Below are positions 52,843 to 53,219 of a DNA stretch of 64,000 nt, one piece after another; the stretch's first letter is position 1, and each line of letters opens with the position of its first letter. Source of the DNA: Bacteroidia bacterium (GTDB lineage: Bacteria > Bacteroidota > Bacteroidia > JADZBD01); NCBI GenBank assembly GCA_020852255.1, contig JADZBD010000020.1, forward strand, positions 1 through 64,000, in the 5' to 3' direction. Under the pieces are notes generated by a model, which was not told where the DNA came from, did no database searches, and was given only the letters and a program-made list of their open reading frames with translations. Position numbers and translations under genes: made by a program.

Positions 52843-52913
52843 AGAGGGGTAGCTCAGTTGGTAAGAGCGCAGGATTCAAATCCGCCGCGGCGGACGAGGG
52901 TTCAGCTCTATGA
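52843..52913 (+). pseudogene. Degenerate tRNA-like copy ahead of tRNA-Met
   Basis: A 31-base run (52848-52878) is identical to 52925-52955 of tRNA-Met, covering the end of the acceptor arm, the whole D arm and the 5' side of the anticodon arm. After GGATTCA the sequences part: this copy continues AAATCC, a 12-bp palindrome CCGCCGCGGCGG and then CGAGGGTTCA (shared with the tRNA-Met T arm, but 4 bases further out). The 3' acceptor strand cannot pair, so it is not a functional cloverleaf. GGATTCAAATCC looks like a T arm, so the copy may have arisen by recombination between an anticodon arm and a T arm. Confidence 0.65.
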
Positions 52914-52919
52914 ATATAA

Positions 52920-52993
52920 GGCGAGGTAGCTCAGTTGGTAAGAGCGCAGGATTCATAACCCTGAGGTCGAGGGTTCAATTCCCTCCCTCGCTA
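52920..52993 (+). tRNA. tRNA-Met (anticodon CAT)
   Basis: A 74-nt cloverleaf can be drawn: acceptor GGCGAGG with CCTCGCT (G1-U72 wobble), D arm AGCTCAGTTGGTAAGAGC, anticodon loop TTCATAA (CAT at 52954-52956), T arm GAGGG-TTCAATT-CCCTC, discriminator A73. The A31/C39 pair at the base of the anticodon stem is a mismatch. CCA is not encoded. An elongator tRNA-Met is most likely; a lysidine-modified tRNA-Ile with CAT cannot be excluded. Confidence 0.9.
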
Positions 52994-52994
52994 C

Positions 52995-53174
52995 ATCGAA
53001 TACGTAGTATATGTATTATACTCGGTATCCCGTCAAATTACTTATACGGGATTGACGCAGGATCTGCGATCACGCTACCTTTCACATCAGATCAAGGGAA
53101 CGAAGGGCTGGACACTGCGTTATCGTCCCTGGGTTGTTGTGCACGTTGAGTTTTTTGCAAGCAGAGGGTGGTAA
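52995..53174 (+). pseudogene. GIY-YIG endonuclease remnant next to tRNA-Met
   Basis: The frame beginning right after the tRNA reads IEYVVYVLYSVSRQ, then ITYTGLTQDLRSRYLSH and KGTKGWTLRYRPWVVVHVEF, ending at TAA after SRGW. This matches the single-domain GIY-YIG nuclease family: the Y-V-Y and Y-T-G strands, the Arg helix and the KGW...RPW segment. The first codon is ATC where ATG is expected, and the C-terminal E-A-M-x-R-E-K-x-L-K segment with the metal-binding Glu is missing. A sequence resembling the family end (GGKNIAWN) appears in another frame at ~53167-53195, suggesting a frame-shifting deletion. It accounts for most of the gap behind the tRNA. Confidence 0.65.
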
Positions 53175-53219
53175 AAATATCGCTTGGAACTAGTTTCCGA
53201 TGGATGTCAGGATTACTTC

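Follow-up and report, generated by a model that had tools for sequence, protein, structure and literature searches.

A GIY-YIG reading frame behind tRNA-Met in a Bacteroidia genome as the possible dead copy of a homing-type element of Bacteroidota tRNA genes

Free-standing GIY-YIG genes among tRNA genes are known from the phages T4 and T6, where the homing endonuclease SegB cuts inside tRNA genes and drives the segmental amplification of tRNA-Tyr together with segB via homologous recombination (PMC13096335; PMC2988022). In fungal mitochondria, the endonuclease ORFs referred to as mORFs, described for atp6 of Allomyces and for atp6, atp9, cox2 and nad3 of Glomus, insert together with a copy of the 3' end of their target gene, so that the hybrid gene remains intact and the native 3' end is pushed downstream; the ORF at atp9 is of the GIY-YIG type (PMC3630166). 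A further comparison is offered by the REP/RAYT (TnpA-REP) systems, in which a small nuclease-type gene has short palindromes on its flanks that are also met elsewhere in the genome. RAYTs are HuH/Y1 transposases.

The locus described here and its relatives share features with each of these systems. They resemble SegB in being free-standing GIY-YIG genes that adjoin tRNA genes; however, SegB belongs to a phage genome, whereas the Bacteroidota element encodes a single domain of ~85 aa, lies in bacterial chromosomes and has a fixed tRNA breakpoint, and a palindrome-broken tRNA copy does not appear in the sections of those papers bearing on SegB. As in the mORFs, the element carries the 3' part of its target and the native one is displaced, judging from the terminators in the genomes G068, G014 and G015, while locus L068 does not fit; in contrast to the tRNA genes targeted here, mORFs occupy mitochondrial protein genes, and the relevant sections of PMC3630166 contain no palindrome. 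The likeness to REP/RAYT lies in the palindromes, but the Bacteroidota protein is a GIY-YIG protein and not a HuH/Y1 tyrosine transposase, and its palindrome is situated inside a tRNA copy. The GIY-YIG domains of UPF0213 and SLX1 are only distant relatives of the element protein, the nearest solved sequences being 1ywl (UPF0213, E=1.4e-4) and 6seh (SLX1, E=0.034). No description of this element was found in the open-access literature searched, with subscription journals and most preprints outside the search; each component is of a known kind, and the combination is apparently undescribed.

The analysis started from a window of 64,000 nucleotides of a Bacteroidia bacterium (contig JADZBD010000020.1, positions 1 to 64,000 of the forward strand), whose genome is referred to as G000. 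The features of the locus are collected in Table 1.

Table 1. Features of the tRNA-Met locus, in window positions.
Feature	Position	Strand	Remarks
Broken tRNA-Met copy	52845..52919	+	68-bp direct repeat of the intact tRNA, 81%
Perfect palindrome TCCGCCGCGGCGGA	52881..52894	.	Anticodon-arm position of the broken tRNA-Met copy
Intact tRNA-Met (CAT)	52920..52994	+	ARAGORN; Rfam 71.8 bits
Open frame with GIY-YIG remnant	52965..53174	+	Opens within the tRNA; without start codon
GIY-YIG domain remnant	53001..53165	+	Profile positions 2-58 of 78; aligned with the intact G068, L068 and L055 homologues

The tRNA-Met is the only tRNA of the window. From 52965, inside this gene, the frame runs uninterrupted to a TAA stop at 53172-53174, and its translation from 52992 reads YIEYVVYVLYSVSRQITYTGLTQDLRSRYLSHQIKGTKGWTLRYRPWVVVHVEFFASRGW, ended by that stop. 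An earlier note, based on the DNA letters only, had claimed that a GIY-YIG domain without a start codon and without the catalytic-Glu segment lies behind tRNA-Met, and both parts of this claim held. In a profile search the frame matched the Pfam family GIY-YIG (PF01541) with E=1.1e-8 and 35.7 bits, above the cut-off of 22.6, and it was also recovered in a genome-wide PF01541 search (E=8.9e-8). It had no match to TIGR01453 (group I intron endonuclease), for which two relatives reached 15.2 and 20.5 bits, below the cut-off of 56.05. No in-frame ATG, GTG or TTG precedes the domain, and in-frame TTG and GTG occur only within it; a start codon inside the tRNA was considered and rejected on these grounds. 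The domain is not complete, as its C-terminal third, including the catalytic-Glu segment, is gone and the match stops at profile position 57-58 of 78. In the relatives this segment reads R-E-x-E-[VI]-K, and E64 is kept in the intact homologues L053, L046, L059 and L023. The Glu of this motif is known to have a catalytic role.

The broken tRNA-Met copy consists of the 5' part of the tRNA to ~nt 36, 2 nt, the palindrome and then CGAGGGTTCA, with ten more tRNA bases behind the palindrome and without the 3' end of the tRNA. Its breakpoint lies after tRNA position 36 (t36), and the copy aligns with the broken tRNA copy of G068. The gapped pattern corresponding to the palindrome matched 0 times when the window was shuffled 100 times. 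The sequence behind the ORF remnant yielded no second tRNA piece. Because the start codon, the catalytic-Glu segment and a downstream tRNA piece are all missing, we call the window copy an inactive remnant, the dead copy of a tRNA-linked GIY-YIG element, which is an inference from sequence alone; the broken copy upstream and the type of its palindrome tie it to the tRNA-Met branch of the family. A search of its own genome for dispersed copies of the broken tRNA gave three other matches at 74-79%, mainly over the intact-tRNA part of the query, which we take to be other tRNAs, and the candidate was rejected.

In the protein tree the window frame pairs with L068, which also lies behind tRNA-Met, at 100/99, on a long branch (2.06) and in a tree of few columns. 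It aligns with G068, L068 and L055, all of which have TCCGCC..GGCGGA palindromes. The kind of linked tRNA is clustered on the tree, requiring 23 changes as opposed to a shuffled mean of 29.4, with 0/200 shuffles as low, although few columns were available and many forks are unresolved; the Asn group forms one clade. Ten sequence pairs were compared for selection: dN/dS was 0.06-0.18 in five (two with dS near 2), one had no amino-acid change and four were saturated. Based on the five usable pairs, the ORF is under purifying selection. Neither of the outcomes that would have refuted the earlier claim, i.e. no significant profile match or relatives with an unrelated frame, occurred, and in the relatives this frame occupies the corresponding position.

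The linkage to tRNA genes was surveyed class-wide in 40 genomes, that of the window and 39 others of its class, and 39/40 contained a GIY-YIG match. Beyond the given loci only small-frame matches were taken and long UvrC/DnaQ-like frames were left out, which gave 94 small-frame domain hits in 87 loci of G000 and its relatives. A tRNA on the same strand lies less than 150 bp upstream of 26 of these 94 hits, and none lies there on the opposite strand; the chance expectation is ~0.1, assuming the commonly quoted ~45 tRNA genes per genome and a genome of 3.3 Mb. Within 150 bp downstream, 7 hits have a same-strand tRNA and 0 an opposite-strand one. The linked tRNAs are of the kinds Ala, Val, Asp, Asn, Met, Pro, Phe, Ser, His, Leu and Arg. 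A second set of 79 loci, by title nearly all from Bacteroidota, was obtained by scanning named genomes with four proteins related to each other, of which three are tRNA-linked (query alignment A2; the first alignment, A1, was too diverse for the collection scan). In this clade set, 56/79 loci have a same-strand tRNA less than 300 bp upstream and 0/79 an opposite-strand one, a proportion that describes this clade alone, since three of the four queries were tRNA-linked. The tight same-strand association is shown by these counts, and a large group of small Bacteroidota GIY-YIG genes without an assigned role is now tied to tRNA genes. As the earlier note had proposed to survey, intact homologues directly follow tRNA genes and are flanked by tRNA pieces.

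The remaining 23 clade loci, which were assigned partly by eye, are not simply unlinked: ten lie behind a palindrome-bearing tRNA copy, six behind a T-loop piece without palindrome, one behind a tRNA interrupted by Ns and two behind tRNA ends at the edge of a contig; upstream sequence is lacking for two, L172 has no tRNA trace upstream and L164 is ambiguous. In L119, L133, L148 and L155 the left tRNA piece begins only at ~nt 26-33, after unrelated sequence, and these could be copies outside tRNA genes with their left edge at the anticodon arm.

The intact loci show a common order, namely tRNA, terminator, GIY-YIG ORF of 80-100 aa and another copy of the tRNA, part of which has given way to a perfect palindrome. 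For the analysis of this anatomy, the 56 and 26 tRNA-linked loci were pooled and three duplicates among the 82 (L108=L053, L139=L046, L142=L059) were removed, leaving 79; the duplicates are still present in the protein tree and in one breakpoint analysis. A palindrome directly abuts a tRNA piece in 66 of these 79 loci, on the downstream side in 57 and on the upstream side in 25, with 18 loci having both. Only perfect palindromes were sought, and a few of the 66 may be the T arm of the tRNA itself. Palindromes occur in the D, anticodon and T arms. The breakpoints are best resolved at tRNA-Val(TAC), where they fall after nt 28 or before nt 46 in 36/46 loci, with both in one copy in 21, so that the stretch replaced by the palindrome, nt 29-45, is exactly the 17-nt anticodon arm as read from the sequence. 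When the 3' half was sought first and the palindrome afterwards, 28/32 tRNA-Val copies had a perfect palindrome ending at t46, compared with 64/6400 random positions; in the other 14/46 loci a 3' half could not be detected within 260 bp. For members of the large Val clade that are situated at tRNA-Met (L122) and tRNA-Arg (L179, L180), the break again lies at the base of the anticodon arm (27), whereas in the clade to which the window frame belongs tRNA-Met is broken at 36, and in the Asn clade the position is 25|36. The breakpoint therefore seems to follow the protein clade; such clade-specific breakpoints are shown, albeit in few cases, and provide, together with the insertion anatomy, a predicted cut site per clade. 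The earlier note had suggested that the broken tRNA copy could be a by-product; this has to be corrected, as the element regularly includes a palindrome-bearing copy with a conserved breakpoint. Tandem arrangements were also seen: at L127 an array of broken tRNA-Val pieces with ~95 bp spacing and two alternating palindromes lies upstream of the tRNA.

The exactness of this replacement raises the alternative that the broken copy is itself functional as an RNA: with its extended hairpin it would mimic a tRNA and would regulate, guide or neutralise the nuclease encoded next to it. In its favour, the anticodon arm is replaced exactly and complementarity is kept in 44 different tRNA-Val palindromes (34 TCCCG..CGGGA, 10 TTCCG..CGGAA), although complementarity was required for detection, and in many loci the 3' end of the ORF overlaps the broken copy. 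On the other hand, the 5' piece of many downstream copies begins only at t8-t18, so the 5' acceptor strand is absent and no cloverleaf can form, upstream copies lack the 3' end, and the window copy showed no sign of a stable RNA, folding no better than shuffles (z -0.27, DNA parameters). We consider this explanation very unlikely.

Filled and empty orthologous sites were found at two tRNAs, Met (G069/G068/G014) and Val (G049/G015); all of these comparisons are between species that are 71-91% alike and not between strains. At a tRNA-Met of the window's kind within one genus, the empty site of G069 contains tRNA, terminator and host gene. The filled site of G068 contains the tRNA, a new terminator, an intact GIY-YIG ORF of 83 aa and a broken tRNA copy with the palindrome TCCGCCTAAGGCGGA at nearly the breakpoint of the window, followed by the host terminator and gene; according to the alignment the net insertion is ~342 bp and ~54 nt of the tRNA are duplicated. 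G014 has a 102-bp remnant without ORF at this site. At tRNA-Val, the filled site of G015 exceeds the empty one of G049 by a net 336 bp, and the alignment of the tRNA and terminator of G049 to the broken copy and the second terminator in G015 reaches 81%. In the genus of G015, 16 of the 17 genomes found were examined by eye over 430 bp at tRNA-Val (G041 was left out): the ORF or its remnants are present in six (G015, G054, G053, G045, G042, G043) and absent in ten, two of which have the broken tRNA copy only (G040, G048). Broken tRNA-Val copies without ORF are also given for G040 and G063. In G043 (L213, 678 onward, G043:C1) a tandem array of a shortened 170-bp unit lies behind tRNA-Val, each unit comprising a tRNA 3' end, a terminator, a truncated GIY-YIG start and a tRNA piece with a long T-loop palindrome. 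In the only same-family relative of the window searched, G001, tRNA-Met lies on contig C84, and no GIY-YIG match was found on that contig.

These comparisons show filled, empty and remnant orthologous sites as well as the duplication of the tRNA at insertion, and they support the earlier suggestion that such ORFs move or use tRNA loci. Displacement can be judged from the terminators only, because the 3' parts of the tRNA copies are too similar to be distinguished; a displaced host terminator is shown behind the broken copy in G068, G014 and G015. At L068, another tRNA-Met of G014, a terminator like that of the empty G069 stays beside the intact tRNA, and simple displacement therefore does not fit there. 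The insertions of 336-342 bp have room for the GIY-YIG ORF only and contain no tyrosine or serine integrase. No relatives of A2 or L263 were found in viral contigs, and a phage-borne element was rejected; the only phage matches were GIY-YIG proteins of Rhizobium phages (42-44% over 69% of the query). No vehicle was found in the viral contigs searched; plasmids were outside the search.

A passive history must also be considered, in which tRNAs were duplicated in tandem by recombination, common palindromes broke the spare copy and an unrelated GIY-YIG gene was retained. Tandem tRNA copies and arrays are indeed frequent, and palindrome-broken copies without ORF exist, such as that of tRNA-Cys in G000. 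However, the bias in strand and distance (26 vs 0; 56 vs 0) is not expected by chance, and chance predicts neither the conserved breakpoints nor the arrival of ORF and tRNA copy together in a single segment. The filled and empty sites already make this history unlikely, and overall we regard it as very improbable.

We favour the reading that the window contains the dead copy of a ~340 bp chromosomal homing-type element residing in Bacteroidota tRNA genes, to which we assign a probability of roughly 0.6, because the carriage of the 3' end recalls the mORFs and the setting recalls SegB. The nuclease would cut the tRNA gene of the recipient at or close to the segment whose place is taken by the palindrome in the broken copy, and repair from the element-bearing allele by homologous recombination would bring in the unit. 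The tRNA would survive the insertion because the element carries the tRNA's 3' part, which would restore a working tRNA, while the original 3' part of the host and its terminator would be pushed downstream, behind the palindrome. The palindrome may protect the spare tRNA copy from cleavage or silence it. In the window, the ORF has lost its start and C-terminus, and a broken copy upstream of the tRNA is left. The cutting, the completion by recombination and the shielding or silencing are all inferred; there are no cleavage data. Besides L068, further points speak against homing: the carrier's own intact tRNA should be cut unless it is protected, and broken copies upstream of the tRNA, as in the window, require a further step. 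Broken copies without ORF (tRNA-Cys of G000; tRNA-Val of G040 and G063) imply that the palindrome copy can arise or persist alone. If correct, the homing reading would mean that selfish homing endonucleases carrying the 3' end of their target, known from fungal mitochondria and phages, also occupy tRNA genes of bacterial chromosomes, and it accounts for tRNA fragments and tRNA-breaking palindromes that otherwise resemble random debris.

The palindromes themselves suggest a REP/RAYT-like alternative, in which they are mobile and multiply into hairpin sites such as tRNA arms and RNase P RNA, with the GIY-YIG protein moving them and tRNAs being affected as hairpin-rich molecules. This is supported by their recurrence away from tRNAs, with 11 TCCGCC..GGCGGA sites in G000 compared to 0 for the reversed control, and 17 TCCCGAT..ATCGGGA sites in G068 and 3 in G015 (control 0), the interiors of which differ. 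Further support comes from their presence in the D, anticodon and T arms and, in one case, inside the RNase P RNA of G000, and from tRNA-free GIY-YIG ORFs, which often lie within arrays of other palindromic repeats. Against it, several of the 11 sites in G000 resemble ordinary coding sequence by eye, the palindromes differ in their middle but keep a fixed tRNA breakpoint, which is not what scattered copies of a single REP would show, and filled sites gain ORF and tRNA and not the palindrome alone. We consider it unlikely. A bolder reading remains possible, although we hold it to be less likely than not, namely a minimal integrative class consisting of a nuclease and a hairpin-swapped tRNA, in which the GIY-YIG clade sets the place where a hairpin is exchanged for a palindrome. 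In that case the element would move by exchanging hairpins in a structure-specific manner, and the palindromes that break tRNAs across Bacteroidota would be the footprints of this process.

G000 contains seven PF01541 matches at E<=1, three of which immediately follow a tRNA, namely that of the window and those at tRNA-Ala (L001) and tRNA-His (L002). In L001 and L002 the ORF has its intact length, and immediately behind it come a palindrome and a further copy of the 3' half of the tRNA; L002 additionally repeats the start of the ORF. The broken tRNA-Cys copy of this genome lies upstream of tRNA-Cys (L098, 1490-1626; G000:C4, ~55.3 kb) and has the palindrome TCCGCCGTGGCGGA in its D-arm region; no GIY-YIG gene was found near it in the stretch read. 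The RNase P RNA gene (L104, 1418-1808; G000:C18, ~63.5 kb; Rfam E=6e-77) contains TCCGCCTTTGGCGGA and two similar GGCGG palindromes, which are of the same type as those in the broken tRNA-Met and tRNA-Cys copies. Outside tRNA genes, the GIY-YIG ORFs of L015, L021, L024, L026, L040, L044, L052 and L056 have repeat arrays on both sides, and a wider pairing of nuclease and palindrome beyond tRNAs is conceivable; the flanking repeats are palindromic in several cases, e.g. ACCCTGAAACAAGTTCAGGGT in L021.
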